DNA of 64,000 bases from Polytrichum commune (Eukaryota; Streptophyta; Polytrichopsida; Polytrichales; Polytrichaceae). This document shows positions 12,456-54,446 of this stretch, one piece after another. The number at the start of each line of letters is the position of its first letter. Positions within the stretch are counted from its first letter, which is position 1. Where the stretch lies: assembly GCA_950295325.1 (NCBI GenBank), contig OX485804.1, positions 41,788,001-41,852,000 on the forward strand. The letters run 5' to 3'. The position numbers were made by a program, and so were the translations under genes. The notes under the pieces were generated by a model. It was not told the origin of the DNA. It searched no databases and was given only the letters and a program-made list of their open reading frames with translations.

Positions 12456-12954
12456 AGGCCACTTCACATGCAAGCCAAGAGCCGTGACCATGAAATTGTG
12501 AGAGCCTGAAAGAAAGTGTCCAAAGGTTGTCTCAAGACACCTCCGAAATCATGTAGTTTGGTCATGGGCCCTCAAGTGTAGTGTGAGGTCATATGTGATC
12601 GGGCCCTCAACAAATGCTATTTCAATGAATTTTTATTTCGTGTGGGTCCTTACTCATGATAAAATAGAATTAACCAACGGTTGTGAGCGTTCAAAGTGTC
12701 ATGGTCTCCCATTTTTGCGTTAGGCCTACCTCCAAGAGGTGGTTTTTGATAATAATCCAAATGACCATAAAACATGATCCATTTGATGCCAGCTAGGAAT
12801 CCATGTAGACTTTACATCCATCATGCATTCACCTACTCCGTTGGTCCTTCAAGCGTAGTGTGAAGCGAACTTGACCCGGCTCCGCCTTTTCCACCAATGA
12901 GAGTGCTCGAAGTGTAATTTTCACGGGCTCTCAGTCTCGTGTGTGAAGTGGCCC
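12456..12954 (+). mobile_element. 499-bp MITE, GGGCCACTTCACAC family, copy A
   Basis: The terminal inverted repeats read aggccacttcacatgcaagc on the left (first G changed) and, inverted, GGGCCACTTCACACACGAG on the right. Both continue into a shared AGAGCCGTGACC-type segment. The element is flanked by TCA at 12453-12455 and 12955-12957. Internal markers shared with the other copies are 'agaaagtgtccaaagg', 'caatgaatttttatt', 'cctccaagaggtggtttttg' and 'ccgttggtccttcaagcgta'. There is no coding region. Size and a 3-bp duplication suggest a PIF/Harbinger-type MITE, though TCA is not the classical TWA target. Confidence 0.85.
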
Positions 12955-17869: not shown

Positions 17870-18180
17870 TGTCACCAACACTAAATGTTAACCCAACCCA
17901 ACATTATTTGTCATTCCTTGTAAAACAAAATTCATAGATTTACAGTGTTGCAATTACTATCATTTACCACGTGATTTGTCATCCAAATTTCAATCATCCA
18001 TGACAACATGTCATCACAAGTTGCTCATAAGAGAAGGGTAAGGGATTCGGCCAATGGACGAACTCACTCATCATCCATCGTGCGCGACACTACATACACT
18101 TGTTCACTTATTCACAAGAAGAAGTGTCATCCGAGAAGCGTCTCCCAGAGTGACACAAAACACCACACGACACTCAAACC
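17870..18180. repeat. Dispersed repeat, copy 3 of 3
   Basis: This copy shares with 8850-9260 the landmarks 'ttgtcattccttgtaaaaca', 'catagatttacagtgttgca', 'catccaaatttcaatcatcc', 'cacaagaagaagtgtcatcc' and 'gtgacacaaaacaccac'. It is flanked on the left by 'ctacactaaataagatattt' and 'gtgtcaccaacactaaat'. Overlapping frames at 18008-18401 run through it and are probably chance. Confidence 0.55.
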
Positions 18181-18775
18181 AAGGGTTGGGAAAACCCCAA
18201 CTTTTTCCCGGCCGATGCACCGGGTTCTTGGTTTTAACGCCAAACAGAAAACCCCTGATTTCTACAAAGAAAACCATGGATTCATTCCAGCACTCGACAC
18301 CTCGGCACCGCCATTGGCGGACATTGGACCCTCTGCCCTATAATCTAAACCGACCTGCAACAAAACCGAACAGAAACCAGATTTCGCTGCACCGCAGATG
18401 ATTGGACCTTTTTCTTAAGAAAAAAACCTATGAAAAACCCAACTATATATATATATATATAACCTCATGGTGCCAACCTTGACTAGACCGTGACGCACGT
18501 TTAGTGCCGCGGTCTCGCTCATTGGTCAATAGAGTTGCGATCGAGCAGCCCCGGGGCCTCGGGACTGATGCCGAGTGCACTGGGAACTCATCGAGTGGTG
18601 GTGGTGGTGGTACTACAAGAGAAACAAGGGTGGTGGGGCTGGCCTACGAAAATCAGTTACTTGCGACTGAAAGCGGAGCCCAATAATGTGCAATGAGGGA
18701 GCGCAAAAGGAAGGAACGACCGGCAATCATTCAGCATGTCGTGACAACCACAATTGGCTCGGCCCTGACCTCATA
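18181..18775. other. GC-richer intergenic stretch, no gene recognised
   Basis: The stretch contains a short (AT)n run at about 18443-18461 and a (GGT)n run near 18595-18612. Three overlapping small open frames exist, but none has a recognisable domain. Base composition is clearly higher in GC than in the surroundings and continues into the repeat array to the right. Confidence 0.4.
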
Positions 18776-19765
18776 AAAGTAACAAAAGCATCGGCGGCCA
18801 CGTCGGACGTCCTTTTCAGGTCCCATGGAGGAGGAGTAATAAGTTATCACATCACTAGCTTAGGGCCACCGCACTCCTCGGGACATGCGCTCGAGAAGGA
18901 TTCTAGTGACACCAAGGACTCAAGGAGGAGCCGGCTTGTCTTAGGGCCCCTTCGGACATGAAGCTCACAGCCCGTGACCATGTACACTTCAAGCACTTCA
19001 AGCACTTCAAGCATTGGTGGAAACGGTGGAGCCGGTCTGAGTTCGCTCCACACTGCAGTTGAGGGACCAAGGCGGAGCCGGTCCAAGTTTGCTCCACACT
19101 ACGCTTGAGGGACCAACAGAGTATGCGAAGTAAAGGAATCGGCGGCCATGTCGGATGCCGTTTTCAGGTCCCATGGAGGAGTAATAAGTTATCACATCGC
19201 TAGGGCCAATGGACTCCTCGGGACATGAGCTCAAGAAGGATTCTAGTGACACCAAGGAGGAGCCGACTGGTCTTAGGGCCACTTCAGACACGAGGCTGAG
19301 AGCCCGTGACCAAGTACACTTCAAGCACTTCAAGCATTGGTGGAAACGGCGGAACCGGTCCAAGTTCGCTTCACGCTGCGCTTGAGGGACCAACGGAGTA
19401 TGTGAAGTAAAAAGAATCGGCGGCCATGTCGGATACCCTTTCCAGGTCCCATGGAGGAGTAATAAGTTATAACAGCGCTGCCAATGGACTCATCGGGATA
19501 TGAACTCAAGAAGGATTCTAGTGACACCAAGGAGGGCCGACTTGTCTTAGGGCCACTTCACACATGAGGCTGAGAGCCCGTGACCAAGTACAATTCAAGC
19601 ACTTCAAGCATTGGTGGAAACAGCGGAGCCGGTCCAAGTTCGCTCCACACTACGCTTGAGGGACCAACGGAGTATGTGAAGTAAAAGAATCGGTGGCCAC
19701 GTCGGGTGCCTTTCCAGGTCCCGTGGAGTAATAAGTTATCACATCGTTCAGGACCACCGGACTCA
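18776..19765. repeat. Tandem array built from one end of the GGGCCACTTCACAC MITE plus other DNA
   Basis: Units begin at 18943, 19276 and 19550, with a partial unit before them, and run into the full MITE at 19766. Each has the MITE end ('agggccacttcacacatgag', 'cttcaagcacttcaagcatt', 'gcttgagggaccaacggagt') followed by non-MITE sequence. That part includes 'gaatcggcggccatgtcgg', 'caggtcccatggaggagtaa', 'taataagttatcacatcgct' and 'ttctagtgacaccaaggagg'. Unit lengths fall from 333 to 274 to 216 bp. Open frames through it on both strands repeat with the units and are not genes. Confidence 0.8.
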
Positions 19766-20264
19766 GGGCCACTGCACACACGAGACCGAGAGCCCATGAC
19801 CTCGTACACTTCAAGCACTCGCATCGGTGGAAACGGCGGAGCCGGTCCATGTTCGCTTCACACTGTGCTTGAGGGACCAACGGAGTGTGTGATTGCAAGA
19901 TGGATGTCAAGCCTACGTGGATTCCTACGTGGCATCGAAGGGATCGTGTTTCATGGTCACTTGGACTGTTTTAAAAAACCACCTCTTGGAGGTGGGCTTA
20001 ACACAAAACTGGGAGATTGATACACTCTGAACGCTCACAACCGTTTGTTTATTCTATTTGTTGTGTGTGAGGACCCGCGTGAATAGAAATTCATTGAAAT
20101 AGCATTTGGTTGAGGGCCCGGGCACATATGCCTTCACACTACACTTGAGGATCCGTGACCACACTACATGAGTTTGGAGGTGTGTTGGGACGGCCTTTGG
20201 ACACTTTCTTTTGGGCTTTCACGGTTTCAGGGCCACAACTCTTGACTCGTGTGTGAAGTGGCCC
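19766..20264 (-). mobile_element. 499-bp MITE, GGGCCACTTCACAC family, copy B (inverted)
   Basis: This is the same element as copy A in reverse orientation. The left end is GGGCCACTGCACACACGAG and the right end gtgtgaagtggccc. Internal marks are 'gagggaccaacggagtgtgt', 'aaaaccacctcttggagg', 'aaattcattgaaatagcatt' and 'ggacactttcttttgg'. The flanking trinucleotides do not match (tca and ata), as expected because the left flank is the rearranged array. Confidence 0.85.
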
Positions 20265-22740: not shown

Positions 22741-23256
22741 AAAAGTGACCGTCAAAGGCTTGCCTACCTTACTTACAAGGAGTTCCAATGTTACGATTCA
22801 TACGATCATCCTAGCATAGCATCATTAAGCCTCACGCAAGAAAACAATACAACCCATGGCCAAGAATAAACCCATTTTATGAGTCTCAATAAAATGATGA
22901 CTTAAATCTTAGTGTTGCAACAATATCTGTTACAAACCTCTCACCGGTTGGCAGTTGATTTCTCGACAACAATATCTCAAAGTAAAGAATTGAAACAAAA
23001 AAAAATTATTTCTTTTTGAGACCACTAAGTACAATCCAAGACCAAATAAGGTTTGGTCAAAGAAGCTCTACCACCCGACCATAGGAGAGAGAGCTAACAA
23101 CAAAAAGCCCCTCTCTCCTCCCCCGAGCTTCCTCTTATGCCAAAGGCACTACTTTTACTTTCTATCTTTACATATAGTAAAAGTATTCTATTCATAGCTC
23201 TATCTTCTAGTTCTACTATGAATCTTCTATCTTTGGTTCTTCTCAAACCTTCTTCA
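22741..23256. other. Intergenic, nothing recognised
   Basis: Low-complexity, CT-rich sequence leads into the hairpin array. No gene was recognised, and the ends of a possible LTR could not be established. Confidence 0.4.
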
Positions 23257-23661
23257 AGTTAGAATTGTCCAACTCCAACTTAGTTTATCCATTCCATCTT
23301 CTAGTTGGAACTGTCTAATTCCAACTAGTTCATCCATTCATTCTTTTAGTTGGAACTGTCTAATTCCAACTAATTCATTCATTCAATCTTCTAGTTGGAA
23401 CTATCTAATTCCAACTAGCTTTATCTATTCATTGAGAGTTGTCTAACTCCAATGAATAACATTCATCTTTCCAAATATGGAGTCGTCTAACTCCATGCAC
23501 CTCATCGAGAGTTGTCTAACTCACGTGCACATGTTCTCAATTGGAATAGTCTAATTCCAATGCACTAAATGCGGAGCTGTCTAACTCCAGTGCACATGTT
23601 GTCAATCTGGAGTTGTCTTACTCCTATTCATTCATCTTCAACTGAGAGTTGTCTAGCTCTC
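23257..23661. repeat. Array of eleven short hairpins sharing a GTCTAA-type core
   Basis: Eleven units start at about 23257, 23301, 23347, 23391, 23432, 23477, 23507, 23541, 23573, 23609 and 23644. Each is a short inverted repeat around GTCTAA or a close variant. Examples are AGTTGGAACTGTCTAATTCC followed by AACT, ATGGAGTCGTCTAACTCCAT, TTGGAATAGTCTAATTCCAA, GGAGCTGTCTAACTCC and GAGAGTTGTCTAGCTCTC. Stems differ between units but both sides usually change together. Spacing is about 44 bp in the first five units and about 29-36 bp later. Spacers are partly alike (ttcatccattcattctt; gtgcacatgtt). No coding frame crosses it. I know of no named element with this form. Confidence 0.75.
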
Positions 23662-23907
23662 ATCTTTCTCTGCTTACACACTGGCACATGTAGTTAGAAT
23701 ATTCCTTAATAATTCTAGTTACATTGCAATATCATAGGTCCAATAGCCCACCCACCGCAAGGTAGGCAATAAACCCCACCCTACACCAAGGGGATTCTTG
23801 AGTAGGGTAGGGCCAATGGGACAACTAGAAGTTTAGAGACAAAGTGGGGAGCATCAAGCATGATGTATAAAAATTCCACTGAATTTAACATAATGTGAAG
23901 GATTTGA

Positions 23908-24576
23908 ATGAGAATGGTCCTAGTGGAGATCATCATTTATGAGTCTTTGGCTTTGTATCAATGCAAGCATTTCAAAGGGCATGCTTTTGCTTTTGAGAAT
24001 TGTTGGGTAATTTTACAAGAAATGCCATGTTGGGTGGAGCTCCAAAATGATTTAGTGAAGACTCGTGATTCTCTCAAGAGGAAGTGCTTTGCCGATGCTC
24101 TAGTTGCCCCTAGTGATTCAACAATAGAAAATTTGGTTGCGGATGAATCCACTTGGAGTGCTAGTGTCACTCGCCACCCTCAATCTTCGTCAAGCAACGG
24201 GAGTAAGAGATTTCCTAGTGTGAAGCAAACAAAAGAGGATTTGGGCAATGGAATGATGTGTGAGCAAGTTGCACATCATGAAGCTCAAGCTTCTTTGGAA
24301 ATGGCTAGAGCTACACGTATGAAAGCTCAAATCTTGCAAGACGCAGTGGCCCAACAACTTTTTGGCATTAACATTGTTGAAATTTATGATCCCATGGCAT
24401 GTGAGTACTATGCATTGAGAAGGGACGAGGAACTCCTCAAACTCAATAGAAGGTTGCAAGAACCTCTTCCCGCCACATTTGAGACCGATGTTGTCCACCC
24501 CTCAATTCCTCATTTTCCTCTTAGTTCTCATCATGCTCAATTTCCTCTAGTCCTCTCAACTACATCTAACACTTGA
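23908..24576 (+). pseudogene. NAM-associated / SANT-like domain protein fragment, possibly PIF/Harbinger ORF1-type
   Basis: The 222-codon frame has two parts that resemble plant proteins with a NAM-associated C-terminal domain, many of which accompany PIF/Harbinger transposons. Near residues 12-45 there is ESLALYQCKHFKGHAF followed by ENCWVILQEMPCW, the family's 'F...HCW..L...P.W' pattern. Near residues 165-190 comes EYYALRRDEELLKLNRRL. An Ala/Gln-rich helical stretch sits between. Just upstream, in another frame, the DNA reads NENGPSGD, where the family has a similar sequence, so a frameshift probably precedes the ATG and the N-terminal SANT half is missing. No transposase ORF was found next to it. 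It lies about 250 bp right of the hairpin array. I favour a transposon relic; a live gene with upstream exons is possible. Confidence 0.45.
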
Positions 24577-49900: not shown

Positions 49901-50361
49901 AGCATTACAATTGTCTCATAGTAAAAGGACTTGATTAAAAAAACATTGTCACCTCTAGGTGAGAATCGTACTGCCCTTTTAAGTTACATTAAACTGAATT
50001 AATTAGTATGTGAAATTTAACTATACCAAAATGCCCTTGGTTTTGGTAAAAAGACCAAAATGGGATACTTTATGCAAAACTATTGTTGATGGATTTGCCT
50101 ATGATTGAGCACCACATAATGTCCAACTAAAATGAACCTACTACATATCATTGAATCGGTAAGTAAAGTGAGGTGTGTGATAGTCACAAATGCATGTACT
50201 GAAATCAAGAGATTTCCCACACCTTTTGTTTGTATAAATGAATGAATTGTCACCCTAAATCTTAAACCATTCAAAATAAACTTGTGATTATCTTGATTAA
50301 ATTTATATGAGACACCTAGAAAATACAAGAATCACTTATTAAGTCTTCCCTTATTGTTTTC

Positions 50362-52840
50362 ATGGGTTTTTATCTTATCCAAAATCTAAACTACATTACC
50401 CACCCCCACGTGCTCCTACATAACAACCCCGACATACTAACCCTTCAATCAATCAAAAACATCAACATCCCCCCAAGCCCAGTTGCCCATGCACAATGGA
50501 TAGAAGATCTAGCAAACATTGCCAAAAATGTCAAAATTGAAGCCTACAAAATCACATCAAAACACACCGCAATTAATTGTAAAATACCCCTTACCAAGTA
50601 TAGAACATCACTAGACAAAAATAAACCCAAAATTATCCACAAACAAATATTCCACCTAACAACCAATAACCTCATTGACTGCCTTCAAGACCCACAAGGC
50701 AATATCCTCACAAACCCCATAGCCATAGCCAATGCCATACAATGCTCTCAACATGCATTACTTCAAAGACAAGCACCCCTAAGTGACAACATCACATAGC
50801 ACCCAGATACATGCATGTGCACCATACGAAAATACCCACGGCACACCCCCAATGGCATCTTCTTAGATAAAAGAGACCCCCCACCACCACACAAATATAT
50901 ACACATTTCTCATGAGAAGTCTACAACAATTGTCTCAAAATATTAACATGAGAAAAAACTCTCAAACTTGGCAACATCCTAAACAAAATAATCAAAGTCT
51001 TAACCCTCCTCCCCAAATCAAAACATGACATTTTTATTCTTCCAAAAATGTTAAAAACAAAGAGAAATCCCAACCTACTAAAAACATAGTAAAACCATCC
51101 TAATGCACAAAAAGATGACCCCATCCACCTCACCAATTACAAGCCTATTGCACTTGCCAATACAATATATAAACTTTACACCATCACCCTAACCAGCCTC
51201 CTCACAAGCTTTGGACACCAACATAGATTCCTATACTTTAGCCAAGAAGAATTTGGACTCCAATGCAACACCACAAGACAAATCCAAATGATTATAGCAG
51301 CCTTTGAAGATGCACAATCCCACCAACAAAAACATATACCTAACATACATTGACTTTTGAAATGATTTTGGCTTCATCAATCACACTCAACTAATGGCCC
51401 TCATGGAAGACTTAGGGTAAACTAGATGTTGTAGAATCAATTGGCAAAATATACACAAACTCCACCGCATTTTTTTCTAGAAGCCATTTTGGATTAACAT
51501 CCCCAATACAAATTTATTGTGGAACCATACAAGGTGACACCACCTTTAATACCACTTCAACACACCCCCTTTTGCATGCACCATCACTGCATATGCCGAT
51601 GACCTCGGGATAATTATTGACAACATCAAGCCACAAATATACAAACTACAAGAATTCACCGAATGGTCACACATGGACCTAAACCTCTCAAATTGTGCCA
51701 TCACATGTTGCACAAATAAATCCAAATACTGCAAGATCATGCGTATACAACCCAAACAACAACATCCAAGCTACCAAAACATCCTATGAGCAAAGCTTAA
51801 CACCATACTCATTTCCATCAAAACCATGTACATGCTACCCAATTGGACATGCACATATTCATAGACAACCACAATAGCATAATTCTCATAACCAATGACA
51901 TACGACACTCATCCTTGCAACATTACCACCCGGACAAACTACTTACAACAACAATTGTACACCAAATACATTGGACCCTGCACAAAATCCACATACACAA
52001 AGTAAAAGCCCATACTTGCATTACTAGAAACGAAATAACCGACATGCTAGCAAACGAGTAAACACACAAAGACAACCCACTAATACACCCCACACACACA
52101 TTGCCCACACCACCTCTTGTTGGCTAGCAAGTTGCCCGATTGCCACACCCAATGGGGCCATCCACAACCTCCGTACATCCATAAATGAAGAGCATTGGAA
52201 ACAAGAATCCTATGCAACCCTAAATAAATTTCCATATGTTGAAAAATGGCTATCAAATGACATAATCAATCATAAACTCTCCTATCACTTTTGGGAAGCC
52301 ATGGATAAATCTGATGCCCAAATCACACAAACTTTGAAATTCTGATACAACCAATATATAGGTAATCATACAAAATTTTGTATTTTGGACCCTCACCCAA
52401 ACCCCAATTGCACCCTATGCCCCCAACAATAATAGGGACACATGTCCTCACCTCCTCTCCACATGTGAGAACCAACACGTAAAAGGCCTAACGATATCAC
52501 GGCACAACAAAATTGTGCACCTCATTGCCCAAACACTACAAGCCATCCACATGTCCACATGCGCACCCACACCATGCCAATGCCAAGCAAAACTAGGACT
52601 TGACATACTATGCCAAACACCAATACCCCTCTCCCCCACACACACACTCCAATTCATAGAATCCACATCTTGCCATGATAGATTCCCTGACCAAGCTCTC
52701 AAACAAGAACACACCAAATATGACTCACTAATTAACACTATACAAAACAACAGATGGGAATTAAACCCCCTCACCACCATCACAGCCATGGTAAGAAAAT
52801 ACTCACATACTCAGTCTCAAACAAAAGAAAATTAGTCAAC
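50362..52840 (+). mobile_element. Decayed non-LTR (LINE-type) retrotransposon with reverse transcriptase and RNase H remnants
   Basis: Parts appear in the order expected of a plant LINE but in different frames. A 145-codon frame (50362-50799) contains LQDPQGNILTNPIAIANAI, like the region ahead of LINE reverse transcriptase. At about 51135 the RT motif NYKPIALANTIYKLYT follows. At about 51345 there is YIDF with NDFG, and at 51592-51603 the catalytic YADD within ITAYADDLGIIIDN. Near 51996-52061 an RNase H-like tail reads KVKAHTCITRNEITDMLANE. Frame changes and stops between these parts show it is dead. The plus strand is visibly rich in A and C and poor in G throughout. The tandem array to the right begins in its 3' end. 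No endonuclease domain could be identified with confidence. Confidence 0.75.
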
Positions 52841-53941
52841 AAACAAGCACCCGTCCTCCATAACACTACTCAACACGCACTTAGCGTACATTCAGTGGGC
52901 CTTAAAAATATAATAGTCGGATGCTTAGAAGGTTGTGCATGCATGCTTGTATTTCAACTAAGATCCCAACATCCGACTACCATATTCCAAGGGCCCACGT
53001 CGCTAAGTAATAATGTTATGCCCCCCCCCCCTTTAACTTTGGATACCTTACATACTTAGTCCCAAACAAATGAAAATTAGACAACAAACGAGCACCCGTC
53101 CTTCATAACACTACACAACACGCACTTAGCGTACATTCAGTGGGCCTTCAAAGTATAATAGTCGGATGCTTAGAAAGTTGTGCATGCAAACTCGTATTTT
53201 AACTAAGCCCCTAACATTCGACTACCATATTCCAAGGGTCCACATCGCTAAGTAATAATGTTATGCCTCCCCCCCCCCCCCCCAACTTTGGATACCTCAC
53301 ATACTTAGTCCCAAACAAAAGAAAATTAGACAACAAACAAGCACCCGTCCTCCATAACACCACTCAACACACACTTAACGTACGTTTAGTGGGCCTTCAA
53401 AATATAACAGTCGGATGCTTAGAGAGTTGTGCATGCAGACAAGTATTTTAACTAAGCTCCCAACATCCGACTATCATATTCCGAGGGCCCACATCGCTAA
53501 GTAATACCTCACATACTTAGTCCCAAATAAAAGAAAATTAGACAACAAACAAACACCCGTCCTCCATAACACTACTCAACACGCACTTAGCGTACATTCA
53601 ATGGGCCTTCAAAACATAACATTGTCGGATGCTTAGAAAGTTGTGCATGCAGACTCGTATTTCAACTAAGCTCCCAACATCCGACTATCATATTCCGAAG
53701 GCCCACATCGCTAAGTAATACCTCACATACTTAGTCCCAAATAAAAGAAAATTAGACAACAAACAAGCACCCGTCCTCCACAACACTACTCAACACACAC
53801 TCAGAGTACGTTTAGTGGGCCTTCAAAACATAACAGTGTCGGATGCTTAGAAAGTTGTGCATGCAAACTCATATTTCAACTAAGCTCCCAACATCCGACT
53901 ACCATATTCCGAGGGCCCACATCGCTAAGTAATAATGTTAT
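52800..53941. repeat. Five-unit tandem array, each unit carrying a CATAAC-family MITE
   Basis: Units begin with 'cacatacttagtcccaaaca', 'aaaattagacaacaaacaag' and 'cacccgtcctc' near 52803, 53050, 53298, 53509 and 53723. Each continues into a hairpin element that starts cataacactactcaacacgc and ends 'cgctaagtaataatgttatg' or a shortened form. Inside each element 'agtcggatgcttag' pairs with 'catccgactaccatatt'. Units 1 and 2 (full MITE ends at 53020 and 53265) are followed by C tracts; units 3 and 4 lack the last ~10 bp. Unit spacing is about 247, 248, 211 and 214 bp. Confidence 0.85.
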
Positions 53942-54446
53942 CCCCCCCCTTCCCAAACACACCTTTGGATAAATATCTTACTAACTAGAGCCCACCCGTG
54001 AAGGAGGCATAGTACATTATGTTGGATTATGGATAACCATCATCAATGTAAGGCTAACAGGCTCACATTCACACCTATACTTGGCTATAGTTGTTACTTT
54101 TCTTTCTCCTTTTTTTTCCTTACCCTCAATCTAAGGGGAAAGCTCACACCGGGCAAGTCATAATTATATGCAACTGCATGCATGCGGGAGGATTTTATAT
54201 AAAGGGCCGTTGTAATTGACTTCGAGTCATTGGCGACCACCCGTGCTAGTAAACTACCGTCACCATGATGTCAACTTTTTTAAGGTGGCAGTCATGGGTG
54301 TGAGGAGCTATTCAACATTGAGTAATTAATTAACAAGTTCCATTGAGATATTCATGGGTGGATTCCCAAATGGAGTTGGTTATTAATGACACCAACAACA
54401 AATAGTATCTCAAGCCTAGCTACATTTATCATGTTAACATGCATGT
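53942..54446. other. Intergenic, nothing recognised
   Basis: No gene or repeat was recognised between the MITE array and the hAT element. Confidence 0.5.

Follow-up and report, generated by a model that had tools for sequence, protein, structure and literature searches.

A tandem array of dyad-symmetric units with co-varying arms in the LTR of a Ty3/Gypsy chromodomain retrotransposon of Polytrichum commune

The window, a 64,000-nucleotide stretch of Polytrichum commune DNA (contig OX485804.1, positions 41,788,001 to 41,852,000), carries at 22928-23728 an 801-bp solo LTR of a Ty3/Gypsy chromodomain retrotransposon. The LTR is inserted antisense, its coding sense being the minus strand of the window. 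Its status as a solo LTR was deduced from the ATATC target-site duplication (+ strand) found on both sides (22923-22927 and 23729-23733) and from the existence of full-length relatives with LTR pairs around gag-pol. A TATA-like box, reading CTATATG in sense, was recognised by inspection at 23171-23177 on the minus strand. Upstream of it, an array of eleven hairpin or dyad-symmetric units occupies positions 23257-23664, also on the minus strand. On the plus strand, the centre of each unit is GTCT or a close variant of it, GTCT corresponding to AGAC on the minus strand. In sense order, and all on the minus strand, these are unit 1, GATGAGAGCT AGAC AACTCTCAGT (23641-23664); unit 2, AATAGGAGTA AGAC AACTCCAGAT (23605-23628); unit 3, CACTGGAGTT AGAC AGCTCCGCAT (23569-23592); unit 4, CATTGGAATT AGAC TATTCCAATT (23539-23562); unit 5, CACGTGAGTT AGAC AACTCTCGAT (23504-23527); unit 6, GCATGGAGTT AGAC GACTCCATAT (23475-23498); unit 7, CATTGGAGTT AGAC AACTCTCAAT (23431-23454), the stem of which grows to 15 pairs with one bulged base in the predicted fold; units 8, 9 and 10, with the arms AGTTGGAATT and AGTTCCAACT around AGAT in unit 8 (23393-23416) and around AGAC in units 9 (23348-23371) and 10 (23303-23326); and unit 11, AGTTGGAGTT GGAC AATTCTAACT (23257-23280).

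All eleven units had 6 or more matches among the 10 flanking position pairs when G.T was allowed; one site outside the array (23024-23047) passed the same filter. The loop-to-loop spacings, in minus-strand order, were 36, 36, 30, 35, 29, 44, 38, 45, 45, and 46 bp. A previous sequence-only reading had described eleven consecutive inverted repeats on GTCTAA-like centres, with a spacing shifting part-way from about 44 to about 33 bp, and both observations were confirmed, the measured spacings shifting from about 45 to about 33 bp. Tandem Repeats Finder reported in the array only four 45-bp units (23251-23431) and a 14-bp repeat (23291-23326). The array had a GC content of 0.373 and a CpG observed/expected ratio of 0.30. 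The window gave no Rfam match at the gathering score, which ruled out a known RNA family for the array, and a tRNA scan (bacterial settings) ruled out a tRNA.

Beside the LTR, at 23908-24576 on the plus strand, we found a 222-codon open frame with a NAM-associated C-terminal domain (PF14303; E 4.2e-6, 28.1 bits for a cut-off of 27.7). Elsewhere in the window, two overlapping arrays at 52802-53934 are built of tandem units of 249 and 214 bp, repeated about three times each, in a region (50001-54000) of strong GC skew (about -0.4). A GC-rich tandem repeat with a 274-bp unit is present at 18784-19892 (GC 0.52 over 18001-20000), and pieces of about 130 bp of this repeat match, in inverse orientation, a repeat of about 500 bp found at 12457, 20396, and 27316.

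A DNA search of the organism's own genome (408 Mb, nearly all in seven contigs of 42-78 Mb) with the window repeat yielded at least 45 matches, 40 of the 642 candidates having been scored. Two pairs of same-strand matches, at the loci L005 and L006, were 5.3 kb apart and represent elements with two LTRs each; the identity within the two LTR pairs was 98.8% and 99.0%. The frames of these two full-length relatives, from which the gag-pol content was read since the window copy itself is a solo LTR, contained the Pfam domains Ty3_capsid, RVP_2, RVT_1, RT_RNaseH, Integrase_H2C2, Tf2-1 SH3, and Chromo, two RVT_1 pieces scoring just under the Pfam cut-off (29.2 and 28.8 vs 29.6). Judged from these domains, the window LTR belongs to a Ty3/Gypsy chromodomain retrotransposon (chromovirus). 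In L005 and L006, a primer-binding site, TTGGTATCAGAGC, which we take to be that for initiator tRNA-Met, directly follows the LTR, and a purine tract precedes the 3' LTR. Of 96 other loci, 22 could be delimited by LTR-end patterns, L015 twice, which gives 23 delimitations. A 5-bp target-site duplication with at most 1 mismatch was present in 18 of the 23 delimitations, and it was exact in 12 of these 18; the window copy and most delimited copies had TG...CA ends together with the 5-bp duplication. The suggestion that the array was part of an LTR, one of three offered by the sequence-only reading, is thus borne out by the target-site duplication, the LTR pairs around gag-pol, the primer-binding site, and the purine tract.

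Some 65 bp of LTR precede the array, and a further 80 bp or so separate it from the TATA-like CTATATG. Because it lies upstream of this box, the array probably belongs to the U3 part of the LTR. By inspection, 8 of the 12 LTRs displayed had TATATG at the corresponding position, that is, all 6 LTRs of groups A and B and 2 of the 6 of group C (A, near relatives of the window LTR; B, a second group; C, diverged arrays).

The array is not confined to one locus, this possibility being ruled out by genome-wide motif and DNA matches. The core motif, GGARTTAGACNRYTCC, occurred 1597 times in the genome, compared with 4 times for a reversed control. Three exact TTAGAC in a row within set gaps were found 1325 times and the corresponding control 1057 times, a high control count that we think is due to unrelated tandem repeats. 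The TTAGAC search also returned other regular tandem repeats, such as the TTAGACTATGGCC family, which appeared unrelated by eye. Our sample comprised 99 arrays (the window and L002-L099) with a total of 720 units, 51 arrays belonging to groups A and B and 48 to group C. L001, being the window itself, was left out, and L005 and L006 contributed one LTR each. The loci are not a random sample; they were the top matches of two DNA searches and the first-listed pattern matches on one contig. Units were chosen by the presence of TAGAC, which fixes stem position 1. The number and order of the units turn over among copies. In two cases, two LTRs of opposite orientation lie close together on one contig (L013/L017, C5:52370240 + and 52376934 -; L018/L029, C5:39772159 - and 39772765 +).

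Subfamily C is known from single LTR-like copies and is taken here to be older than A/B. When 34 C loci were compared with the window LTR, between 26 and 34 matched most of the array part, 12-22 matched the downstream stretch that includes the TATA-like box, and none matched the LTR ends, in a comparison that favours the array, as the arrays had served to select the C loci, which were trimmed to about 1 kb. By eye, group C contained other stems (e.g. TTGGGT/ACCCAA, ATGGGC/ACCCAT, and GGGAG/CTCCC) and a first unit reading TTTGGAGT-CAAACA-ACTCCAAA. DNA and motif searches of the genome thus revealed many related arrays, spread across diverged LTR families.

Perfect inverted repeats (stem of at least 7, loop of 3-8) occurred at 6.5 per kb in the 99 arrays, 2.4 per kb in their flanks, and 0.63 per kb in dinucleotide shuffles. 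AGAC was in the loop or at most 2 nt away in 207 of the 263 inverted repeats inside the arrays and in 19 of the 185 outside, with arrays delimited by TTAGAC. We then compared the pairing of matched arms with that of arms redealt, i.e. shuffled within one array, a procedure that ignores relatedness. In A/B, the Watson-Crick fraction was 0.93 for matched vs 0.51 for redealt arms at stem position 3, 0.78 vs 0.50 at position 8, and 0.41 vs 0.21 at position 9. Pairing was weaker in subfamily C, with the same trend (0.81 vs 0.58, 0.70 vs 0.58, and 0.38 vs 0.28, respectively), and position 10 showed no difference between matched and redealt arms. Perfect stems were found in 241 of the 720 units, as compared with 109 after redealing (maximum 129). 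The number of distinct perfect 6-bp stems was not clearly higher (7, for a redealt mean of 5.7 and a maximum of 9). Stem position 2 behaved differently, its pairing being lower with matched than with redealt arms (0.46 vs 0.56 in A/B and 0.52 vs 0.59 in C). Among 425 distinct units, this position was T-A in 213, T.G in 79, C.A in 70, and C-G in at most 1, as if one changed side were tolerated and two were not.

Relatedness was taken into account with a tree-based null, a home-made stand-in for R-scape run on a noisy tree of 565 distinct 48-mers. The covariation summed over positions 3-9 amounted to 718, a value reached in none of 300 null runs (mean -5, sd 121, maximum 353), while the sums for slid positions ranged from -74 to 76. 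The Watson-Crick fraction at stem positions 3-9 was 0.72, for a null mean of 0.40 and a maximum of 0.57. Single-pair covariation was weak: the true pairs ranked 1, 2, 5, 6, 7, and 9 of 169, and the best one, position 3 (E 0.17 per matrix), was alone in nearing significance. Branch-wise co-changes from one Watson-Crick pair to another numbered 10 at the true positions vs 2-6 at slid positions, a modest excess, and by eye the independent covariation events are few, about ten at most.

We also aligned the A/B arrays (50 rows, from which the C-like L046, L055, and L058 were removed to leave 47) and counted as lineage-fixed those variants present in at least 4 copies. There were 7 lineage-fixed two-sided changes from one Watson-Crick pair to another, vs 0 or 1 in each of six slid controls; 5 of the 7 sit in units 10-11, where units turn over and the alignment is poorest. 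Two-sided changes from a Watson-Crick pair to an unpaired state numbered 8, all in units 10-11. The sequence-only reading had noted that both arms mostly change together. This holds; the window alone contains few ancestral events, and it is the related arrays that carry the case. Loss of paired stems in other copies of the LTR, which that reading had named as evidence against its own view, was looked for in the related arrays, and the other copies were found to keep their pairing. The covariation test that it had called for gave a joint score above all 300 null runs in our substitute for R-scape, with weak single pairs. Covarying base pairs, which are a criterion for a conserved structured RNA, are thus indicated by the joint test; a DNA site would also display them.

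The distribution of fixed variants in the A/B alignment was uneven. A lineage-fixed variant was found in 2 of 40 loop columns and 5 of 80 inner-stem columns, compared with 15 of 80 outer-stem columns, 7 of 40 columns for positions 1-2, and 53 of 169 spacer columns. These counts cover ten of the eleven units, excluding alignment ends and columns with fewer than 35 rows, and 8 of the 47 rows (L040, L041, L047, L050-L053, and L059) had entered via the TTAGAC pattern, which favours intact loops. The load of rare variants, which we take to be mostly changes that followed insertion, was equal across all column classes (0.017-0.022), and lay at 0.020-0.022 in the loop, inner stem, and spacer. The scarcity of fixed variants in the loop and inner stem, together with the uniformity of rare variants, points to selection in active elements. 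We infer that the constraint acted in the lineage that moved and not on dead copies. Neither mutation rate nor the copying of arms would by itself account for the sparing of the loop.

With moderate confidence, we interpret the array as a U3 cis-regulatory module of dyad-symmetric protein-binding sites in a Ty3/Gypsy chromodomain LTR family, a protein-binding array and a structured RNA having been the other two suggestions of the sequence-only reading. It would consist of about ten dyad-symmetric sites, all in one orientation and upstream of the core promoter, each with a half-site of approximately GGART around a fixed asymmetric centre, TAGACN. Most likely, a nuclear protein that is a dimer or has two domains would bind each unit as duplex DNA and control transcription from the LTR, and the many unit copies would give redundancy and strength. 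Another explanation, possible but of rather low probability in our opinion, is that the units are RNA hairpins in the 3' UTR part of the transcript (U3 of the 3' LTR), just past pol, whose AGAC loops would be presented to Gag or to an RNA-binding protein of the host and serve packaging, export, or stability. This would be in keeping with the end of the pol frame in L006, about 45 nt ahead of the 3' LTR, and with stems that vary yet stay paired around a fixed loop in one orientation (583 TTAGAC and no GTCTAA). Co-varying arms fit a hairpin more naturally than a DNA site. An ordinary dimer operator does not require its arms to change together, and conservation of the centre equals that of the inner arms, both of which speak against the U3 module. 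The constant orientation fits an RNA hairpin as well, or plain descent. Other observations against the U3 module are the presence of an exact TATATG in just 2 of the 6 C LTRs displayed and the absence of a helical phase in the spacings (R 0.31-0.33 for each of the four periods examined), on which such phasing of the units was rejected.

Strand symmetry bears on both explanations. In the unit tree, one-sided changes led to G.U 31 times and to A.C 37 times on internal branches, and 74 and 77 times, respectively, at the tips; at positions 3-8 of the 425 distinct units, there were 162 G.T vs 157 A.C cells (summed over rows). Such a balance is expected of a double-stranded site, and a clear excess of sense-strand G.U, an idea derived from the window copy, failed on this larger set of units. 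Because the one-sided mismatches are strand-symmetric, a reading specific to RNA is not favoured. Pointing the other way, the lineage-fixed one-sided changes of the A/B alignment (47 arrays) leaned toward sense G.U (18 vs 8 A.C; 13 vs 7 without position 2), and, for 11 of 12 arrays, the sense strand of the whole array had the lower folding energy. These 12 arrays also out-folded their shuffles (12 each), with z values of -3.5 to -9.2 in sense; antisense equalled sense in this respect (-4.8 to -14.3, with the stronger z value in 8 of the 12), and single units (n = 359) folded at lower energy in antisense in 199 cases, in sense in 142, and equally in 18. Overall, a dyad-symmetric double-stranded site appears somewhat more likely than an RNA hairpin, mainly on account of position and strand symmetry. 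The palindromic motifs described upstream of the TATA box of Sireviruses in passages of PMC2829016 would be a precedent, by analogy, for the U3 module.

The symmetry could also be of mutational origin, template switching in reverse transcription or repair copying one arm onto the other and tandem duplication spreading the units, with no function. The turnover of units among copies and the occurrence of two-sided changes with no excess of the wobble of one strand would agree with this. We consider it improbable, given that fixed variants are depleted in the loop and inner stem and not in the spacer, while arm copying would not protect the loop, and that pairing is lower in C, taken as the older group, than in A/B, meaning that standing copies do not regain it. 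For dicer-like enzymes, stems of roughly 6-15 bp are short substrates, which argues against a role as a host silencing substrate, in which hairpin transcripts would feed small RNAs and the array would persist through a need for it in cis. The latter explanation, to which we assign a still smaller probability, finds support in the excess of small RNAs reported at the LTR palindrome clusters of maize Sireviruses, with a conflict proposed, in passages of PMC10760457. A plain minisatellite of the LTR, palindromic by accident, would account for the four 45-bp units, which form a clean tandem repeat, and for the weakness of the single covarying pairs; it is disfavoured by the symmetry, the joint covariation, and the selective conservation, and its likelihood seems to us very slight. 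A minisatellite and nothing else was rejected on the excess of inverted repeats, the joint covariation, and the conservation. Finally, the array might be a retrotransposon RNA element of at least ten tandem hairpins, in which the stems evolve freely but stay paired and the AGAC loop is constant. It would be recognised by a host RNA-binding protein or by the element's Gag and carried in U3, so that one module would serve both the DNA and the RNA stage; we regard this as unlikely.

The putative U3 module has partial counterparts in other LTR elements. The Drosophila gypsy insulator, also from a Ty3/Gypsy element, packs approximately 12 degenerate Su(Hw) protein sites into about 400 bp, to which the putative sites described here may be likened; the Su(Hw) sites are in the 5' UTR and are not palindromic, whereas the present units are dyad-symmetric and probably placed in U3. 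Gammaretroviral packaging signals share with the array tandem hairpins with a constant four-base loop in the RNA of an LTR element, but these GACG-tetraloop hairpins are few and located in the leader RNA, whereas here there are many units, probably in U3, with AGAC. Tandem repeats in U3 are described for retroviruses and tobacco Tnt1 in passages of PMC3601003; the present array differs by its ten or so units, each of them an inverted repeat with co-varying arms.

The closest case is that of the Sireviruses (Ty1/copia). The sequence-only reading knew of no described element of this form; this claim does not stand, since clusters of palindromic motifs upstream of the TATA box of Sirevirus LTRs are described in PMC2829016. 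According to the passages of that paper, each element carries at least eight motif copies, 3-14 of them in the 3' LTR; they gather in the LTR's upstream half, before the TATA box, and some have bases between their arms. The same passages call the motifs Sirevirus-specific, meaning absent from the classic Ty1/copia elements compared, and suggest a regulatory role with no experiment; a CGG-CCG core is found in 12 of the 13 elements tabulated (Tnd-1 lacks it), and the motif cluster forms a CpG island in most RM-bearing elements. A later paper on the Sirevirus palindromes (Genome Res 2016 26:226) is cited in passages of PMC10760457 and PMC5311732, and the maize survey reported in the former found no obvious structural peak in Ty3 elements. 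The window LTR resembles the Sirevirus cluster, as known from these passages, in having eleven dyad-symmetric units upstream of a TATA-like box (by inspection). It differs in having Ty3/Gypsy chromodomain domains instead of those of Ty1/copia, GGAR...YTCC around TAGACN instead of a CGG-CCG core, a low CpG ratio (0.30) with no CpG island, an array that starts after about 65 bp of LTR instead of 200-400, and several different stems inside one array.

A literature search, based on passages of papers, brought up no similar case from a bryophyte or a chromodomain element, which is not proof of absence in print; the array is not described in passages of PMC5311732, PMC6911290, PMC2864245, and PMC3601003. 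The feature is real and conserved, and represents a kind of U3 array that is already described, now in another superfamily, with another motif and with co-varying arms. Finding such an array in a chromodomain Ty3 lineage, where the motif is different and the arms co-vary, suggests a repeated origin of arrays of this kind and selection on the symmetry itself. As the stem variants around one centre form a natural series, the question of DNA or RNA can be tested directly.
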